A stretch of 25,591 nucleotides of DNA. It comes from a virus. The stretch lies in IMG/VR virus record IMGVR_UViG_3300013130_000043, positions 1-25,591 of that record. One strand, given 5' to 3'. Shown in pieces: positions 6,936 through 19,730 of the stretch. The notes under the pieces were generated by a model. It saw only the letters and a program-made list of their open reading frames with translations, was not told where the DNA came from and searched no databases. Position 1 is the stretch's first letter; each line of letters begins with the position of its first letter. The position numbers and the translations under genes were made by a program.

Positions 6936-9518
6936 ATGTCTAGAACATATATTAAACGTATTCCTGGAAGAAAGAGTGCAAAGTTTAGCTTTGAGTCTCA
7001 AGAGGAGTTTATTATAAAATTCAATAAGTTAATGGTAGCTGTTAATAAAGATCCTGTTAACAACTTCTTTAAACACCCTTGGTTTTTAAATTTTCAAGCT
7101 AGTCCTGCTCAAACTGTAGCTTTAAAGACTATTTTTAAGAAACCGCTAGACCCATTTACAAAATTCGAGGTATACCAAGAAGATATAAATGAATTAGATC
7201 AATTTGATTTAAGTGTAGCAGAACTTACAGAAATAGAACTTTACGAACTAATGACTGGAAGAGTGTATGATTTAGAAAAGGTTAATAATCCTGATCATTA
7301 TGTAAACATGATTGATTTAATTATTGGCCGTAGGGGTGGTAAGTGTCAAGCAATAAACACCACAGTATTATTGGCAAACGGAAGCCTACGTAAGATACAA
7401 ACCCTTGTGGATTCTACTTTTTTAGTTCCATCTTATAATAACACGACTGAAAAAATAGAAACAAAATTAGCTAGTTGCATAAATAATGGTTTACAGCCAG
7501 TTATACGAATAAACACTAAATCGGGACTTTCATTAGATAGAACTAAAAATCATCAATTATTAACTAATGAAGGGTGGTTATCACAAAATGATGGGTTGAA
7601 GTCGGGGTTGTTTATTAAGGTTCCTAAAGAACTTCCATTTTATAATTCAGAAGATTTATTAAATAGAAGTAATTTAGAAAAATTAGCTACGGAGACTAAA
7701 CCCCAAATCCCAGAAGAGTTGTTTACTGGATCTAAGGCTGAGATCACTTTTTATTTGAATCTCGTATTCCATAAACACGCAACTAGTAATAAACAACTTA
7801 AATCTTTCGATAAAGATTTCTTATTAAAAATCAAGCATTTACTTCAACGATTGGGTAAAATAAGTCATATTGGAAAAGCTATAACTGGAGAATATACTCT
7901 TACAGCTTATACTTTAGCTGTTGATTATTGGTGGGATGAAATATTATCTATAGAGGATCTCGGAGAACTTCCCACATATGGATTATCGGTAGAAGATAAT
8001 CAAACATATATTACAGATGTAATCGAACATAATACTACGGTCGCTGGAGGGCTTGCTACATTCTTCTCTGCGGCTACTAATTGGAATCCCTACCTCTACA
8101 CTACACCCCACGCAACTGTTATCCTCCTAAGCCACAAAAAAGAGGGTGCCATTGAAATTTTGGACATGATTAAGGGGTTTGTGAATAAGTCTCCAATCCT
8201 TAAACATTGTATAGATCCTGAGGGGAAACAGACGGATGAGCAACTAAGTTTGTCTTTCCCCTATATTAGCGCAGAAACCGGTTATGTGGAACCATCTAAA
8301 GTTGTGGTTAAAGCTGGAGTAGCATCTTCTAAAACAACTCGAGGTACAGCTGCTTGTGCAGTACTTTGTGATGAGATTTCATATTGGCAGTTGGAAGAAG
8401 CCTTGAAGGAAACCGATGTAAAGATTTTGAATGCTGTTCGGCAAAACATGAAGCAGTTTGGCAAAAAAGCTATTTTGGTTAAGTTAAGTAGCCCTGGGAT
8501 AAAACAAGGTGTTTTATACAACGAACACCAGAGGTGGTTGATAAACGACCTTCCTAGTAATTATCAAATTTTTAAGGCCCCTAGTTGGGTGTGGAATACT
8601 ATTTTATCCCCAGAAGAGTACATTATCGAGTGGCAGTATGACGCTGATAATTTTGATGCAGAACTTCGAGCTAACTTCGTAGATGCGATTTCTGACTTCT
8701 TTAACGTTGAGATGTTGGAACTTTGTGTAGCTAAAAATATTACTTTTTTAACTCCTGAAGTTGAGGAGGGGGAAGTTATTTATAAGGCTGCAATTGACGC
8801 AGCTTTTAAAAATGACACTTTTACTTTTTCGATTGTTGGACATACAGAAGCCCAAATAAGACAATACGTTATAAAGGGGTGGGAGGGGGAAAAAGGTCCA
8901 GATGGTAAGAAAATCTCTGTAAAAGTGGCAGATATAGCTGAGTATTGTAAAAACATTTGTCAACAATACGGTATTGAAGAGATCTCTGCCGACCAATTTG
9001 CATTCCAACCCCTAAAAGAATTGTTTGAACAACAAGGTTTAACTTTAGTAGAAAGACCCTTTTCCCAAACATACAAGAAGAAAATATATTTTAATTTAAA
9101 GAGATTAGTTAATTCCGGGCAAATCCAGCTCTTAGATCATCCTAAGATGCTAAAAGAACTAAAACAGCTTATTGTAGAGCAAACGTCCAACGGTAATATA
9201 AAAATAGGGCACCCAAATGGTGGCAGTGATGATTACGCAGACTCCTTAGCTATAGCAGCATATGAAGCCGTAGAATCTTGTGGTGTAGGCACTTTTAATT
9301 TTGATGCTACCCTACCCACTAGAGATTTTGGGATTGATGTGGATAAAAATGGTACTCCTTTTACTGCTCCTAGCCCAGAAATGCTAGCTGATTCACTGGG
9401 TCTCAGTTTTACATGTAATGGGTCCAGTTTTGTTAAACATCCTATAACAGGGAAACTAATCCCCATCGATGAACTTAAAGATAAACCAGGAGATGATGGG
9501 TTTGTCTTTAGTTTCTAA
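6936..9518 (+). CDS. terL: Terminase large subunit, interrupted by an intein
   Basis: This 860-residue precursor becomes a 630-residue terminase after splicing. The ATPase half has the Walker A motif GRRGGK-TTVAGG, which the intein splits after Lys136, and Walker B AVLCDEIS with Asp479-Glu480 in precursor numbering. The nuclease half has the RNase H-like acidic residues: Asp621 in AAIDAAF, Asp in SADQFAF, and the final cluster GGSDDYADSLA (Asp765, 766, 769). It is the motor that pumps DNA into proheads and cuts the concatemer. The start ATG is preceded by A-rich sequence with only AAGAAAAAATAAG as a weak ribosome site. It is the first large gene of the rightward operon. Without splicing the ATPase cannot form, so splicing is essential for packaging. 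Confidence 0.95.
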   Translation: MSRTYIKRIPGRKSAKFSFESQEEFIIKFNKLMVAVNKDPVNNFFKHPWFLNFQASPAQTVALKTIFKKPLDPFTKFEVYQEDINELDQFDLSVAELTEIELYELMTGRVYDLEKVNNPDHYVNMIDLIIGRRGGKCQAINTTVLLANGSLRKIQTLVDSTFLVPSYNNTTEKIETKLASCINNGLQPVIRINTKSGLSLDRTKNHQLLTNEGWLSQNDGLKSGLFIKVPKELPFYNSEDLLNRSNLEKLATETKPQIPEELFTGSKAEITFYLNLVFHKHATSNKQLKSFDKDFLLKIKHLLQRLGKISHIGKAITGEYTLTAYTLAVDYWWDEILSIEDLGELPTYGLSVEDNQTYITDVIEHNTTVAGGLATFFSAATNWNPYLYTTPHATVILLSHKKEGAIEILDMIKGFVNKSPILKHCIDPEGKQTDEQLSLSFPYISAETGYVEPSKVVVKAGVASSKTTRGTAACAVLCDEISYWQLEEALKETDVKILNAVRQNMKQFGKKAILVKLSSPGIKQGVLYNEHQRWLINDLPSNYQIFKAPSWVWNTILSPEEYIIEWQYDADNFDAELRANFVDAISDFFNVEMLELCVAKNITFLTPEVEEGEVIYKAAIDAAFKNDTFTFSIVGHTEAQIRQYVIKGWEGEKGPDGKKISVKVADIAEYCKNICQQYGIEEISADQFAFQPLKELFEQQGLTLVERPFSQTYKKKIYFNLKRLVNSGQIQLLDHPKMLKELKQLIVEQTSNGNIKIGHPNGGSDDYADSLAIAAYEAVESCGVGTFNFDATLPTRDFGIDVDKNGTPFTAPSPEMLADSLGLSFTCNGSSFVKHPITGKLIPIDELKDKPGDDGFVFSF
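7344..8033 (+). other. Intein within TerL Walker A motif
   Basis: Residues 137-366 of the precursor (230 aa) are an in-frame protein intron. Block A begins with Cys1 (CQAINTTVLLANGSLRKI). Block B is GLSLDRTKNHQLLTNEGW with the TxxH motif. Block F is WDEILSIEDLGELPTYGLSV, and the end is VIEHN with penultimate His and final Asn, followed by Thr as the +1 nucleophile. Removing it joins GRRGGK to TTVAGG exactly. The middle (TFYLNLVFHKHATSNKQ, then DFLLKIKHLLQRLGKIS) looks like a shrunken DOD/LAGLIDADG endonuclease region. No acidic LAGLIDADG motif remains, so homing is probably lost while splicing residues persist. Confidence 0.93.
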
Positions 9519-14276: not shown

Positions 14277-14451
14277 GATGTGCGTTAGGTGCGGTATGAA
14301 AGGCCATACCTCAGACTCCACTAAGTGTAAAATGGTAGTTTCTAATAATCAGAAGATTACTGGACAAGTGAAAATTACTGTATCCGATCCAGACTTTCCA
14401 ATCATAAAGAATAAAAAAGGATTAAATTTCTTATTTGGGAAGATAAAATGA
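14263..14451 (+). CDS. Small zinc-knuckle-like protein
   Basis: Sixty-two residues beginning MPKTEMCVRCGMKGHTSDST, followed by KCKMV. Cys7, Cys10, His15 and Cys22 form C-x2-C-x4-H-x6-C, a slightly stretched CCHC zinc knuckle, so nucleic-acid binding is plausible. The tail is basic (KITGQVKITVSDPDFPIIK). The start ATG at 14263 overlaps the GroES-like gene by 14 bp; an ATG at 14278 would also keep the knuckle. It ends with an ATGA overlap with the nuclease gene, so the two are probably translated together. Confidence 0.6.
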   Translation: MPKTEMCVRCGMKGHTSDSTKCKMVVSNNQKITGQVKITVSDPDFPIIKNKKGLNFLFGKIK

Positions 14452-15254
14452 GTAGGTTTAATTTAAAAAAAAGACCAAGTTTAATCCCTATTTTTAATAA
14501 AGTTTTAGAAGAAAAAGCTAAACCACAATATAAATCATCAGACGAACCCAAACTTAAACCTAGTGATTTTGGGAATCCTTGTTTTAGATATCTGTTCTAC
14601 AGTTATCTTAGAACGGAAAAAGATTTTTATCCCTCTTCAAAAGAACAGAAAACATTTGATATAGGAACCGCATTACATGAAATGATGCAGTCTTGGTTAC
14701 AAAGTTCTGACTCATTTATCCCTTATTTAGATCCACAAACAAACAAAATCCCCATTAGCCCTATGACGGGGTTGCCAGACCCAGAATTTAAAATAGTTTT
14801 TCCTCCCCTAGAAGTAAAAGTTGGTAAAATAGATGGGGTAGTTATTATTGATAATCAGCTTTGGTTGGTAGAATTAAAATCTATAAAAGATGAATTATTT
14901 ATAGCATTAAACGAACCTAAGGACGCTCATCAGATTCAAGCAAACATTTATGTTATGGGGTTTGAGGATAATCGTAAGAAGGGTTTATATAATCACATTC
15001 CCCAATTAAGTGGATTAGGACCAGTCCAAGGAGTTATCTATAATTATTTTAATAAGAATACTGGGGATATAAAGGATTATGTAGTTCTGGTTTCAGAAAC
15101 AGCCATTAAAACTATTTTTGATAAATATAAAAAATTTAAGAAATATGTGGAAAACAAAGAATTACCACCCAAAACAAAGTACTATTGTAATTCTTGTGCC
15201 TTTCGCGTAAAATGTAAAAATGAAATCAATCCACTAAGGTGTAAAAATGAGTAA
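14448..15254 (+). CDS. Cas4/RecB-type PD-(D/E)XK nuclease with iron-sulfur cysteine pattern
   Basis: A 268-residue member of the Cas4/RecB-like PD-(D/E)XK family. GTALHE gives the N-terminal His (77), KIDGVV the Asp (129), WLVELKSI the E-x-K (Glu142, Lys144), and HQIQANIYVMGF the QxxxY motif. Cys45 (GNPCFRYLFY) with Cys247, Cys250 and Cys256 near the C-terminus form the one-plus-three pattern that holds a 4Fe-4S cluster in Cas4 and AddB. Family members are DNA exonucleases, often acting on 5' ends. No cas genes accompany it, so it is a phage recombination, packaging-end or DNA-degradation nuclease. It overlaps both neighbours and belongs to the accessory cluster inside the head operon. Confidence 0.85.
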   Translation: MSRFNLKKRPSLIPIFNKVLEEKAKPQYKSSDEPKLKPSDFGNPCFRYLFYSYLRTEKDFYPSSKEQKTFDIGTALHEMMQSWLQSSDSFIPYLDPQTNKIPISPMTGLPDPEFKIVFPPLEVKVGKIDGVVIIDNQLWLVELKSIKDELFIALNEPKDAHQIQANIYVMGFEDNRKKGLYNHIPQLSGLGPVQGVIYNYFNKNTGDIKDYVVLVSETAIKTIFDKYKKFKKYVENKELPPKTKYYCNSCAFRVKCKNEINPLRCKNE

Positions 15255-15969
15255 ACGAGGAAAGTTAACTTGTGGAATAATATTTTTTATTGGGTGCTTT
15301 TTTCTTTACGAGAGTTTAGCGGAGAATCAACAAGAAGTCGTATCTTACACCCCTTATAAAACTTTAGTTTTAGAAAAAGAAAACACCTTAATTTTAAATG
15401 GGGAGATTACGCGATCTTTAGTGGCAGAGTTACAATATAAACTCCATAAAATGTCTTATAAACTTCCCTTAGACAAACCCATTATCTTAGTTATTAACAC
15501 TCCTGGGGGTTCTGTATTAGCTGGCCACAGACTCATAGTTGCTATGGGTGCAGTTCCCCAACCAGTACACACCTTAGTTCTCAATGCTAATTCTATGGGA
15601 TTCTATATTGCTCAGGCTGGAAAGATTAGATATACTGCTCCCGATTCTCAATATATGGCCCACAGAGCCTCCCTTCAAGGACTTTCAGGGGAATTAAACG
15701 GTTCTTTAAACTCTCGTCTTTTACAAATAGAAAACATAGAAAAGTTTTTGCAGTTTGTTACAGCTCTGAGATTAAAAATGGATTTAAGCACCTTCCAAGA
15801 AAAAATAAAAGATGAATACCGCTTCTCTGGGTTTGAATCAAAAGACCACAATGCGGCTGATGAGATAGTCCTCCCCCTTTGTGGAGTTAGTTTGTTAGAT
15901 AGGGTGGTAGTGGTTATAAATCCCACTACACAAGCTATGTTTTACTCTTGTCCACTGTTTTCATTATGA
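15247..15969 (+). CDS. Membrane-anchored ClpP-like serine protease
   Basis: A 240-residue ClpP/crotonase-fold protease. LILNGEITRSLVAEL is the opening strand. PIILVINTPGGSVLAG is the oxyanion-hole region (PGGSV). LNANSMGFYIAQAG carries the nucleophile Ser116. SQYMAHRASLQG carries His139, and the Asp probably lies in the ESKDHNAADEIV segment as in ClpP. A basic start and a hydrophobic stretch (residues 8-25, GIIFFIGCFFLYESLA) predict a signal anchor or lipoprotein-like leader, unlike cytoplasmic ClpP. The phage already has a prohead protease further on, so this enzyme may act elsewhere, for example on membrane or head proteins. It overlaps the upstream gene by 8 bp. Confidence 0.8.
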   Translation: MSKRGKLTCGIIFFIGCFFLYESLAENQQEVVSYTPYKTLVLEKENTLILNGEITRSLVAELQYKLHKMSYKLPLDKPIILVINTPGGSVLAGHRLIVAMGAVPQPVHTLVLNANSMGFYIAQAGKIRYTAPDSQYMAHRASLQGLSGELNGSLNSRLLQIENIEKFLQFVTALRLKMDLSTFQEKIKDEYRFSGFESKDHNAADEIVLPLCGVSLLDRVVVVINPTTQAMFYSCPLFSL

Positions 15970-16354: not shown

Positions 16355-17203
16355 ATGTCAGAAGACGCTTTTAATTTTGTAATTCCAGCTAAGTTAAATA
16401 GTGAAGTTCCTGGTTCTTATAAGATTTGGGGGCTAGCTTCTACTTCTTCTTGGGATCAACAAGGAGAAAAAGTGTTACAAGAAGGTATAGATTTAACCCC
16501 CATTAAGGAAGGAAGGGGGTATTTTAATTTTGAACATTCTTCTGCCCCCGAAAACAGATTGGGTCGAGTAGAGGGTTACAAACAGGGGCAAGAACATTTA
16601 TACGTACATGGAGAGTTGTTTAAAGGAAATCCCCGAGCCGATGCGATCTATGCTATTATGAAGGCTCTTGAAGATCGCGGAGAATCCGCTGTTGGGTTGT
16701 CTATTGAAGGTAACGTTATAGAAAGAGACCCTTTAGATAAAAAAATTATAAAGCGTTGTATTATAAACAATATATCTTTAACCATGAAGCCAGCTAATAA
16801 TGAAACTTATGCCTCTTTAATGAAAAGTTTGGGGGCTGCAACTTTAGAGTTTAATTGCACAAAGCCAGAAAGAGGGGTAGAGAGTAATGTTTCTACCGAA
16901 ATTCCAATCTTTACTACATCTCAAGTCTTTGATATTATCCAAAAAGCATTAGCTGTATCTCAAAATTATGGAACTACAGCTCCCGTAAATCTTTCTGGGG
17001 GTTCCGCTCTTGCTCAATCTACCTTATCTTCTAAAAAAGATAAAGAAGTAGAAAAGGTAGATTTTAAAGGAAAACCAATCAAAGAGTGTATTTCTCATAT
17101 TCTAGCAAACTTGAAAGCTTTATATCCAAACGAAACAAACGAAACTTTATTAGAAGCTTTAAAGCGTAGGATTGTCAAAAAACAAAAACCCGGTATGTTA
17201 TAA
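16355..17203 (+). CDS. Prohead protease with capsid-like C-terminal segment
   Basis: A 282-residue herpes/HK97-type (assemblin-fold) prohead protease. GYFNFEHSSAPENRLGRV carries His61 and ESAVGLSIEGNVIERD carries Ser116 (H-x, then V-G-x-S-I-E-G). ISLTMKPANNETYASL closes the domain. It trims scaffold and capsid proteins during maturation. After about residue 160 comes a linker, and residues 196-220 are nearly identical to residues 27-51 of the major capsid protein (SQNYG, TAP, GGSALA). This is followed by a basic C-terminal tail (ETLLEALKRRIVKKQKPGML). Order protease, scaffold, capsid is the usual one. The ATG at 16355 has only a weak AGG upstream. Confidence 0.85.
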   Translation: MSEDAFNFVIPAKLNSEVPGSYKIWGLASTSSWDQQGEKVLQEGIDLTPIKEGRGYFNFEHSSAPENRLGRVEGYKQGQEHLYVHGELFKGNPRADAIYAIMKALEDRGESAVGLSIEGNVIERDPLDKKIIKRCIINNISLTMKPANNETYASLMKSLGAATLEFNCTKPERGVESNVSTEIPIFTTSQVFDIIQKALAVSQNYGTTAPVNLSGGSALAQSTLSSKKDKEVEKVDFKGKPIKECISHILANLKALYPNETNETLLEALKRRIVKKQKPGML

Positions 17204-17204
17204 T
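17196..17204 (+). promoter_or_regulatory. Extended -10 promoter before the scaffold genes
   Basis: TGT plus TATAAT (17199-17204) spans the last codons and stop of the protease gene. A TTGTCA at 17172-17177 is 21 bp upstream, too far for normal spacing. Transcription would start near 17211, ahead of the 71-residue gene. Confidence 0.5.
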
Positions 17205-17244
17205 CATTTAACACTAAAAGTTATTTATTTGGAGAACCCTAAAT

Positions 17245-17460
17245 ATGGCAGATGTAGGCCGACCAGAACGTCCCAACACTCAAGTTTACACAGACACTGT
17301 TCCCGATGGTAGTTCATTGCAAGCTGTGTTGGTAAAACAAGATGAAATTATTGCTACATTGAAAGCTTTGACAGCTAAATTAGATGTGGATTCTGGGGTT
17401 GCAGATACTAATTATGCCGCTCTTCTGACAAACGCTCTTAAAGTCGTTAAACTTATTTAA
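17245..17460 (+). CDS. Small protein between protease and scaffold
   Basis: Seventy-one residues with GGAGA nine bases before the ATG. It begins MADVGRPERPNTQVYTDTVP and continues with a helix DGSSLQAVLVKQDEIIATLK, ALTAKLDVDSGVADTNY, ALLTNALKVVKLI. The helix-loop-helix layout and position suggest a small capsid-associated or decoration protein. Its GRPERPN motif is echoed by DRAERPK in the next gene. The family is unrecognised. Confidence 0.6.
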   Translation: MADVGRPERPNTQVYTDTVPDGSSLQAVLVKQDEIIATLKALTAKLDVDSGVADTNYAALLTNALKVVKLI

Positions 17461-17472
17461 GGGATTATTTAA

Positions 17473-18267
17473 ATGGTAGATAACGTAAACACTCCCAGTC
17501 AAGAAGATATTTTAAATAAAGCTATTGATCAATTAGTAGAAGAGTTATTTACTACTAATGATGCTATTCAAAAAATGGACGTAGGCACTTCTCATACTTT
17601 GGCTGATGAAGCTTTGGCTAAGGTTCCTAATAGCCCAAAGGATACTGACCGAGCAGAGCGCCCTAAACAACTAACTCAAATCCCAGAAGGGCAAGGTGAA
17701 CAAATGTCGGAAGGAACTTACGATAAAGATATTACAAGTAATCTTGATGAAGAATTGCAACCAGAAGAAGCTAAAACCCAATCTAATGCTTCAGCCCCTA
17801 CTACTTCTATGAACAAGTCTATTTCTGAAGAAGAATACAACGAATATCAAAGCCTTAAGGCAGAAAGAATAAAACTAAACCAAGAGCAAGAACTTGAAAA
17901 ATCTCAGAAATTAATGGAACAAGTAGTTGCTCGGGCAGTAGAAGCTACAGCTGCTAAGTTTCAAGCTGAAAACTCTGATCTTAAAAAATCCGTGGAAGAG
18001 ATGAAACAAGCTTTTACTAATATGGCATCTAAACCCCAAGCGAGAAAGTCTATTGAGTCTGTAGTTGCTATAGAAAAGTCTCAAAAGAAAATGGAACCCA
18101 CAGCATATTCTCGTCAAGAAGTGCTTCAAGCAGTAGAAGATTTGGTACTTAGCAAGTCTCACCCTCAATTTAAAATTGAGCATATTGCAGAAATGGAACA
18201 ATTTGGAAATTTATCAGATCCAAGCCTTAGAAAAGATGTAGAAAACTATTTAAACAGAAAAAGTTAA
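17473..18267 (+). CDS. Probable scaffolding protein
   Basis: A 264-residue acidic protein between prohead protease and major capsid protein, where scaffolds normally lie. The first 110 residues are low-complexity and polar. A long coiled coil then follows (EEEYNEYQSLKAERIKLNQE, KLMEQVVARAVEATAAKFQA, SDLKKSVEEMKQAF). It ends in a compact helical domain (YSRQEVLQAVEDLVLSKSHP, IAEMEQFGNLSD). No enzyme motif is seen. Scaffolds are helical and acidic, guide capsid assembly and are usually degraded by the neighbouring protease. The call rests on position and composition only. Confidence 0.65.
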   Translation: MVDNVNTPSQEDILNKAIDQLVEELFTTNDAIQKMDVGTSHTLADEALAKVPNSPKDTDRAERPKQLTQIPEGQGEQMSEGTYDKDITSNLDEELQPEEAKTQSNASAPTTSMNKSISEEEYNEYQSLKAERIKLNQEQELEKSQKLMEQVVARAVEATAAKFQAENSDLKKSVEEMKQAFTNMASKPQARKSIESVVAIEKSQKKMEPTAYSRQEVLQAVEDLVLSKSHPQFKIEHIAEMEQFGNLSDPSLRKDVENYLNRKS

Positions 18268-18326
18268 ATTAGTACACAACTAAACAAATTTACAGATAAC
18301 GACAATAATTTTAAAAGGTAAGAATA

Positions 18327-19730
18327 ATGAATGAAGCACAATTCGCTAATAATTATGACGTAACTGGGTTTGGAGCCCACACTAGTCAAGAAGTAGCAGA
18401 ACTTCAAAAAGCTCTATCTATTTCTCAAAACTATGGTTCAACAGCACCAAATTCTTTGACTGGAGGTTCAGCACTAGCTGTAGAATCTCTGGATCGCACC
18501 CTGAAGTTGGTTACAAACTCAGTAGAACACCTCCGTTTGTGGAAAGATATCGGGAAAGAAAAAGTAGATCAAGAAGTGTTTGAATATAATGTTCAAAACT
18601 CTTATGGTCAAGAAGTATCTCCATTCTTTCAAATGGGTGGAAATCCAACTAGTACAGATTCTAAATATAATCGAGAATTTGGTATGTGTAAGTATCTTGG
18701 TACTCAAGCCCAAGTACACCACAATCTTACCTTGATTGCTGCGGCTCATGGTCCAGTTGTTGCACGAGAAACTAAAAACAAAACCATCGAACTTCTTTCT
18801 CGTAATGAAAGATTCATGTTTTCTGCTGATTCCACAGTTAACTCTTTAGAGTATGATGGTATTGAGCAACAAATGTTAGTAAAAGGTTCTGATGCCCAAT
18901 ATCTCTCTACAGCAATGGCTGGTTTTGACACAGTGGATACTGGTTCAGTTTTCATTGATGCTAGAGGTGGAGCACTGGATGATGACTTGTTGGAACAAGC
19001 TGGTTTGCGTTCTTTGAATGGATTTGGCATGGCTGATTGTATGTTTCTTGGAACCGATACCCATAGCCGGTTCAGCCGACAATTCTATGCAAAACAACTA
19101 CTTGCTCCAGGTACATCTATTAACTCTGGTCAAATGGTTCCTCAGCATAATGGCGCTCTTAGCTTTAAGTTTAAGCCCAGCTTGTTTAACCGTCCACGTC
19201 AAGCTCCTTTGACTACTACTGTTAGTGCAAGTGCCGCCCCAACTCTTGCTAACCTTGCTACCCCAGCCGATGCTGCTAGCGAATTTGCGTCTGCTGATGC
19301 CGGAACTTATAGTTATAGAATTAGTGCAGTATACGCTGATGGCGAAACTACAGCTGCTACAGAAATTAATGGAGCTGTTGCATCTGGTGACAAAGTAACT
19401 ATTGAAATTACTTACACTGGTGCTCCACTGTACTTCAATGTGTTTCGTGCTCCAGTAGGAACAACCACTGGTCATTTGTTTACCAAGCGGATTGCCCCAG
19501 CTGGTTCTGGTGTAGCTCATAATGTTGACTTCAACGCTAAGCTTCCAGGCACTGCTACGGCTTTCTTGCTTCAAAACGATGGAGAGGTAGTAGTTTGGAA
19601 ACAATTGGGCTCAATGGTTAAATACGATTTGGCGACAATTGATACATCATATCGATGGAACCAATTGATTTATGGAGCTCCTCTAATTACAGCACCTAAA
19701 AAGAATGTAATTATAGAAAACTTAGGCTAA
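18327..19730 (+). CDS. Major capsid protein with an inserted Ig/FN3-like domain
   Basis: A 467-residue HK97-fold major capsid protein. The N-terminus has the ELQKALSISQNYG, TAPNSLTGGSALAVESLDRT segment typical of one capsid family and shared with the protease of this phage. VEEYNV-type residues follow as FEYNVQNSYGQEVSPFF, then KYLGTQAQVHHNLTLIAAAH, MFSADSTVNSLEYDGIEQQM and LGTDTHSRFSRQFYAKQ. Residues about 290-400 (GTYSYRISAVYADGETTAA, KVTIEITYTGAPLYFNVFRA) form an immunoglobulin/fibronectin-like domain, likely displayed on the capsid surface. The core resumes in VVWKQLGSMVKYDLATIDTS. AAAAGG precedes the ATG at 18327, and a strong terminator follows. Confidence 0.9.
   Translation: MNEAQFANNYDVTGFGAHTSQEVAELQKALSISQNYGSTAPNSLTGGSALAVESLDRTLKLVTNSVEHLRLWKDIGKEKVDQEVFEYNVQNSYGQEVSPFFQMGGNPTSTDSKYNREFGMCKYLGTQAQVHHNLTLIAAAHGPVVARETKNKTIELLSRNERFMFSADSTVNSLEYDGIEQQMLVKGSDAQYLSTAMAGFDTVDTGSVFIDARGGALDDDLLEQAGLRSLNGFGMADCMFLGTDTHSRFSRQFYAKQLLAPGTSINSGQMVPQHNGALSFKFKPSLFNRPRQAPLTTTVSASAAPTLANLATPADAASEFASADAGTYSYRISAVYADGETTAATEINGAVASGDKVTIEITYTGAPLYFNVFRAPVGTTTGHLFTKRIAPAGSGVAHNVDFNAKLPGTATAFLLQNDGEVVVWKQLGSMVKYDLATIDTSYRWNQLIYGAPLITAPKKNVIIENLG

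Follow-up and report, generated by a model that had tools for sequence, protein, structure and literature searches.

The head protease of phage T4, gp21, cleaves at a motif that ends in Glu. In the herpesvirus assemblin and assembly protein (UL26/UL26.5), the C-terminal part of the protease shares sequence and a self-cleavage site with a component of the immature capsid, and the shared part brings the protease inside that capsid. The C-terminus of HK97 gp4 is reportedly needed for packaging, a result said to be that of Duda et al. in 2013. HK97 gp4 is a packaged head protease that takes an N-terminal piece off the capsid protein (PMC12749128). In SPN3US the protease cuts off its own C-terminal propeptide; a truncated form remained active but appeared absent from proheads, and a packaging (targeting) role for the C-terminus is what the authors infer (PMC7411985). 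C-terminal self-cleavage is also reported for the phiKZ protease (PMC5694885). The present analysis concerns a prohead protease encoded on a 25,591-nucleotide stretch of virus DNA (IMG/VR record IMGVR_UViG_3300013130_000043, positions 1 to 25,591; hereafter the window), the C-terminal tail of which carries a segment resembling the N-terminal arm (N-arm) of the major capsid protein encoded downstream. Packaged head proteases with a self-cleaved tail are already known, whereas a tail that mimics the capsid protein and evolves in concert with it appears to be new; searches of the open-access literature turned up no description of the shared segment.

As in SPN3US gp245 and the phiKZ protease, the propeptide proposed here is C-terminal, and self-cleavage would occur at the type of site found in the other head substrates (PMC7411985, PMC5694885 and PMC10052503). 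The sites given for those two enzymes are T4-like and end in Glu (e.g. AQE, ATE), whereas here Lys is followed by Ser or Ala, and, unlike the situation in the window, no extended likeness between propeptide and capsid N-arm is described in the passages covered. T4 has the same gene order, protease - scaffold - capsid, and gp21 is the top Foldseek match of the AlphaFold2 (AF2) model of the window protease (5jbl, E = 1e-5, probability 1.00), but gp21 and the N-terminus of gp23 have no significant common segment (p = 0.06). HK97 gp4 likewise acts on the N-terminal part of the capsid protein, but the best gp4-gp5 match (p = 0.008) is a weak one at a different place, within the N-terminal part of gp4; neither control, T4 or HK97, contains anything comparable to the shared segment. 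In the herpesviruses the partner is the scaffold and the genes overlap, whereas here the partner is the capsid N-arm and the segment is encoded twice, the copies being alike despite divergence. In T4, short peptides known as capsid targeting sequences steer proteins into the prohead and are taken off by the head protease (PMC7411985); they are N-terminal and sit on internal proteins, whereas the segment described here is C-terminal, on the protease, and capsid-like.

The protease gene (282 amino acids) occupies window positions 16355-17203 on the plus strand and the capsid gene (467 amino acids) positions 18327-19730, also on the plus strand. A sequence-only reading of the window had pointed to an ungapped match at 19 of 25 positions between protease residues 196-220 (16940-17014) and capsid residues 27-51 (18405-18479). 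The match is confirmed, and a longer alignment has 23 of 39 residues identical between protease residues 188-226 (16916-17032, plus strand; hidden Markov model match 1.3e-11) and capsid residues 19-57 (18381-18497, plus strand), the latter, by alignment and profile, comprising the end of the propeptide, the cut site and the beginning of the mature N-arm. The Smith-Waterman score of the segment pair is 109, against a mean of 35.6 and a maximum of 66 for shuffled sequences (Gumbel p about 5e-9). In an all-against-all BLASTP comparison of the 33 open reading frames (ORFs) of the window, the protease-capsid pair has E = 5e-9 and no other pair falls below 0.09. A tblastn search of the window with the capsid finds a single second place, the protease segment, at 1.2e-8. 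Chance as the origin of the match is rejected by the shuffling p-value and the BLASTP E-value.

Protease and capsid were collected per locus and aligned within each phage. The segment pair is present in 42 head modules: 18 from Herelleviridae, that of Pseudomonas phage Touem01, and 23 loci of the window group, the window included. Loci of the window group were sought with the capsid of viral contig L004, which is 63% identical to the window capsid; this search returned 28 loci including L004 itself, at 61-100% identity. Among annotated phages, SPO1- and Twort-type Herelleviridae come closest, with capsid identities of about 30% or lower. In these 42 phages the match to the capsid N-arm lies in the protease tail, just after the catalytic domain, as in SPO1 (protease DKSLEAGYEVDPEKMEGGDVFRKESLD, capsid NKALEAGHTVNPLDLEGGGAFRVESLE), the A511-type phage LP-125 (protease MKSWTTGHGTTPDTQVNAGALRRESLA, capsid LKSFTTGYGITPDTQTDAGALRREFLD) and Touem01 (protease NKSLEAGYGSDMANLSGGSAMRMQSLD, capsid QKSLQAGYGSDMNDLSGGSALRIQSLD). 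The segment pair is also present in Bordetella phage PHB04, Yersinia phage fHe-Yen8-01 and Thermus phage phiMa, and weakly in Thermus phage Lalka8. A profile search detected no third copy in the scaffold, portal or other ORFs of the fetched loci; the K-S sites of the scaffolds score below 5 bits against the segment profile.

The segment begins at the equivalent of a capsid cut that is documented in relatives. In the A511 record X91069 the mature Cps is annotated from Ser24, right after Lys23, the translated propeptide ending in QEDALK and the mature protein starting with SFTTGYG, and the capsid chains of phage 812 (PDB 9row, 9rox and 9roz) start at Ser25, right after Lys24. Both positions align with K28/A29 of the window capsid, and hence with K197/A198 of the protease (codons 16943-16948, plus strand), the putative cut in its tail. 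The capsid propeptide is accordingly predicted as residues 1-28 (18327-18410, plus strand); K28 is invariant across an alignment of 12 diverse capsids. Lys occupies the site in 42 of 42 capsids and 41 of 42 proteases, and the next residue is A, S or T in 40 proteases. Both copies contain the motif Phi-x-K followed by A or S, where Phi is a hydrophobic residue. The documented capsid cuts in the relatives follow Lys, in place of the Glu of T4-like cleavage. In the Twort-, Listeria-, Enterococcus- and Bastille-type phages the segment starts at the Lys-Ser that closes the catalytic domain, and a cut there would give a tail fragment with nearly the N-terminus of the mature capsid protein. An additional motif like K157-S158 of the window protease is found in 31 of the 42 proteases. 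The codons of Lys157-Ser158 (LMK/SLG; 16823-16828, plus strand) lie at the end of the catalytic domain, and their conservation (both residues invariant in the 11-row alignment A2; K157 invariant and S158 nearly so in the 23-row alignment A3) marks a second putative self-cleavage site. The cut sites in the capsids of relatives are the basis for predicting self-cleavage at both K197/A198 and K157/S158.

Across 35 presumed scaffolds Phi-x-K[SA] is about 8-fold enriched (336 occurrences, with 43 expected from composition), whereas it is depleted in the capsid bodies (23 observed, 45.5 expected), 27 of the 42 capsids having none after the site. Such a pattern is consistent with a protease that leaves the shell intact while presumably degrading the scaffold at these motifs. 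The documented cuts in A511 and phage 812, the conserved Lys and the packing of motifs in the scaffolds together lend strong support to one proposal of the sequence-only reading, that the segment is a maturation cleavage site. It is likely to be more than a cleavage motif, because the likeness of cognate copies runs on the product side from +1 to about +25, including GGxAL, with hardly any upstream of the cut, and this extension is absent from the presumed scaffold sites.

The DNA of the two copies has diverged more than the protein. Of the 19 residues shared in the window, 8 have the same codon in both genes, and the copies agree at 4 of 12 fourfold sites; over the 42 cognate pairs the codon is the same at 215 of 485 shared residues, with 224 expected from codon usage alone. 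Since codon sharing is at the chance level, the likeness is maintained by selection on the protein sequence while synonymous sites are randomised, as the sequence-only reading had supposed. A recent duplication or gene conversion in the window was considered and rejected, its synonymous sites being random.

In phylogenetic reconstruction the copies group by lineage and not by gene. In a tree of 68 segments (35 columns, with many unresolved forks) both copies of the window group lie on one side of a branch, and the protease and capsid copies of the Twort/Bastille group do likewise. Forcing all protease copies into a single clade is rejected (71 log units worse; approximately unbiased test, p-AU = 0.0099). 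The two copies of one phage resemble each other more than proteases of different clades do in 36 of 36 clade pairs, and more than capsids of different clades do in 31 of 36, although the pairs are not independent. On permutation within clades, the two larger clades reach p of about 5e-5 to 1e-4 and the four-member SPO1 clade 0.13; a regression on body similarity gave slopes of opposite sign, was uninformative and is not used. In Thermus phage phiMa (L062, 1706-4850) both copies carry a version peculiar to this phage, GDPHALD. Their DNA is about 75% identical and includes a run of about 26 identical nucleotides, and 18 codons are shared against 13.1 expected, a pattern that looks like recent gene conversion between the protease and capsid genes.

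Building on the two-copy architecture, the concerted evolution and the motif distribution observed in these sequences, we propose that the protease tail is a self-cleaved, capsid-mimicking propeptide with a docking role, a reading to which we assign a probability of roughly 0.55. The tail would consist, in order, of the capsid maturation site (K197/A198, equivalent to capsid K28/A29), a copy of the mature N-arm, and a helical hairpin. In the growing prohead the N-arm copy would bind the partner of the capsid N-arm, whether shell or scaffold, and the protease would thereby be built in. Once assembly is complete, the protease would cut after Lys in Phi-x-K/S or A motifs. Its targets would be the N-terminus of the capsid protein, numerous sites in the scaffold, and its own tail, where the cut would free the catalytic domain from its tether. 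The virion proteome of the Herelleviridae phage JS1 includes the protease (PMC12977511), and the fHe-Yen8-01 record marks both the protease and the presumed scaffold as particle-associated. Docking is preferred to a bare recognition site because the product-side identity is to the mature N-arm of the capsid protein and is lacking from the presumed scaffold sites. The suggestion of the sequence-only reading that the segment is a docking peptide is therefore plausible and the one adopted here, resting on the extension past the cut and on analogy with the SPN3US propeptide (PMC7411985). A more specific form is offered tentatively, at a little short of even odds: the tail would take the place of the capsid N-arm in the prohead or on its scaffold partner, would coevolve with the capsid in each lineage, and would come free through the same cleavage by which the capsid matures.

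Several observations weigh against this proposal. Bacteroides phages DAC19 and SJC03, MT835500 and Chryseobacterium phage MA9V-3 keep the capsid site without a protease copy. Because this Bacteroidota-type branch lacks it, the copy is not obligatory for the wider capsid family; it is not universal, and packaging and cleavage can proceed without it. The sequence-only reading had named related phages with the capsid segment but no protease counterpart as a refuting case; this case exists in the one branch. In MA9V-3 (L015, 2270-3868) protease and scaffold are apparently fused in one 532-amino-acid ORF without a capsid-like segment, an arrangement that resembles herpesvirus UL26. Such a fusion would make a docking tail superfluous, an argument that is only suggestive because DAC19, SJC03 and MT835500 have no such fusion. 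Most of the closest relatives of the window differ between their copies in mid-segment, only K-A-L and GGxAL being common. Among phages with very similar protein bodies, the score of cognate copies is no better than that of non-cognate ones (59.7 vs 57.9; 91.5 vs 93.0), and for this reason concerted evolution is claimed at the level of lineages only. The covariation that the sequence-only reading had proposed to look for in pairs from related phages is thus clear between lineages and not resolvable among close relatives. Finally, what recognises the product-side likeness could be an exosite on the protease and not the shell.

The main rival develops this last point: the segment would be a protease recognition element and nothing else, an exosite reading the cut site plus about 25 product-side residues in the capsid and in the protease itself, and serving specific or well-timed cuts of two key substrates. 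It would account for a block that starts exactly at the documented cut position, for a Lys kept almost without exception in both copies and for copies that evolve in concert. Against it, each presumed scaffold has many sites that show the Phi-x-K-S core and lack the extension, and the Bacteroidota-type proteases lack the segment although the capsid site persists. We know of no exosite in the gp21 family, and this explanation is regarded as unlikely. More doubtful still is the idea that the segment is a pseudosubstrate occupying the protease's own active site and keeping it inactive until assembly, another proposal of the sequence-only reading. The segment is substrate-like and placed after the catalytic domain (directly so in the Twort-type phages), but protease residues 199-236 are predicted to be disordered, with a predicted local distance difference test (pLDDT) below 50, and the AF2 output, from a shallow alignment, gave no readable packing on the catalytic domain. 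The site is moreover a cleavable Lys-Ala/Ser and not a blocked one, and self-cleavage takes place when the comparable SPN3US enzyme is produced on its own (PMC7411985); with predicted disorder and this self-cleavage, the idea finds no support here. Functionless likeness through occasional copying of capsid DNA into the protease gene, for which the phiMa signature of apparent recent gene conversion might speak, is very improbable and as a full account is refuted by synonymous sites that are randomised while residues are kept, since the likeness would decay without selection, and recombination may at most be a route by which a new version spreads.

The protease gene matches phrog_1028, head maturation protease (9e-30), and its AF2 model has a mean pLDDT of 70, again from a shallow alignment. 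On this model the protease is assigned to the T4 gp21 type, a claim that extends to the fold family, specificity apart; assemblins come next in the Foldseek results (1o6e, 2wpo and others) at weak E-values of 0.01-0.05. The catalytic domain comprises residues 1-150 (16355-16804, plus strand), with pLDDT of about 75-93 up to residue 150. His61 and Ser116 are likely the catalytic residues because they are invariant in both protease alignments. The C-terminal extension, residues 151-282, is predicted to be a disordered linker plus a hairpin. A tail helix (188-198) stops at the putative cut and is followed by disorder. The hairpin, residues 242-276 (17078-17182, plus strand), consists of helices 242-256 and 262-276 with pLDDT of about 80-87 across most of its length, and L256, P258 and R272 are invariant in the 23-row alignment. 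The protease tails of L041, L046, L049, L004, L030, L031 and L039 carry lineage-specific inserts behind the segment (CWxGxxRVPGTK...SC; EREHKLYEDARQR domain), and in L039 the hairpin is seemingly duplicated. In L043 (2624-3230) the reading frame of the protease is interrupted behind VMKS and the capsid-like segment goes on in another frame, through either a sequencing error or a real change.

The window capsid matches phrog_752, major head protein (2.9e-59), SPO1 Gp6.1 (PDB 9vel, 4e-44) and PDB 5lii (5.5e-14), which places it in the SPO1/Twort-type sequence family. Its AF2 model (mean pLDDT 52) was too poor to be used. The presumed scaffold (264 amino acids; 17473-18267, plus strand) is acidic, with a charge of -16, is rich in K-S motifs (Phi-x-K[SA] 6 observed, 1.0 expected) and occupies the position of the annotated head scaffolding protein of SPO1; it has no PHROG match. 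A small ORF of about 71 amino acids (17245-17460) lies between protease and scaffold, and small ORFs are found in the same place in L004 and L030. In L030 (2587-4501) three tandem related HNH-like ORFs, assigned to that family by eye, lie on the minus strand between the scaffold and capsid genes. Immediately after the capsid gene of Thermus phage Lalka8 (L059, 5083-7253) come a CRISPR repeat region, as annotated, and a gene of the TnpB family. Two genes upstream of the gp21-type protease, the window encodes a ClpP-type serine protease with a hydrophobic N-terminus (15247-15969; Pfam CLP_protease 5.8e-15; phrog_94, head maturation protease), which is present in about 19 relatives; the head module thus seems to carry two unrelated proteases. 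A Cas4/PD-(D/E)XK-type exonuclease gene (14448-15254) also lies within the head region, and the terminase large subunit (6936-9518) contains an intein (Pfam Intein_splicing, residues 144-366).

The segment found in the well-studied laboratory phages SPO1, Twort and A511 is a concrete candidate for the means by which a head protease enters the prohead and is restrained from acting early, and its two proposed functions should be separable by point mutations, of Lys to Ala for cleavage and in GGxAL for docking. The predicted specificity, Phi-x-K then S or A, would apply to a large set of phages, among them those of Staphylococcus, Listeria, Enterococcus and Bacillus, and should aid the annotation of their mature virion proteins. 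The arrangement has a counterpart in the herpesviruses, in the tail that protease and scaffold share. If the more specific form of the docking proposal is true, one peptide would serve as packaging ticket, release switch and structural arm.

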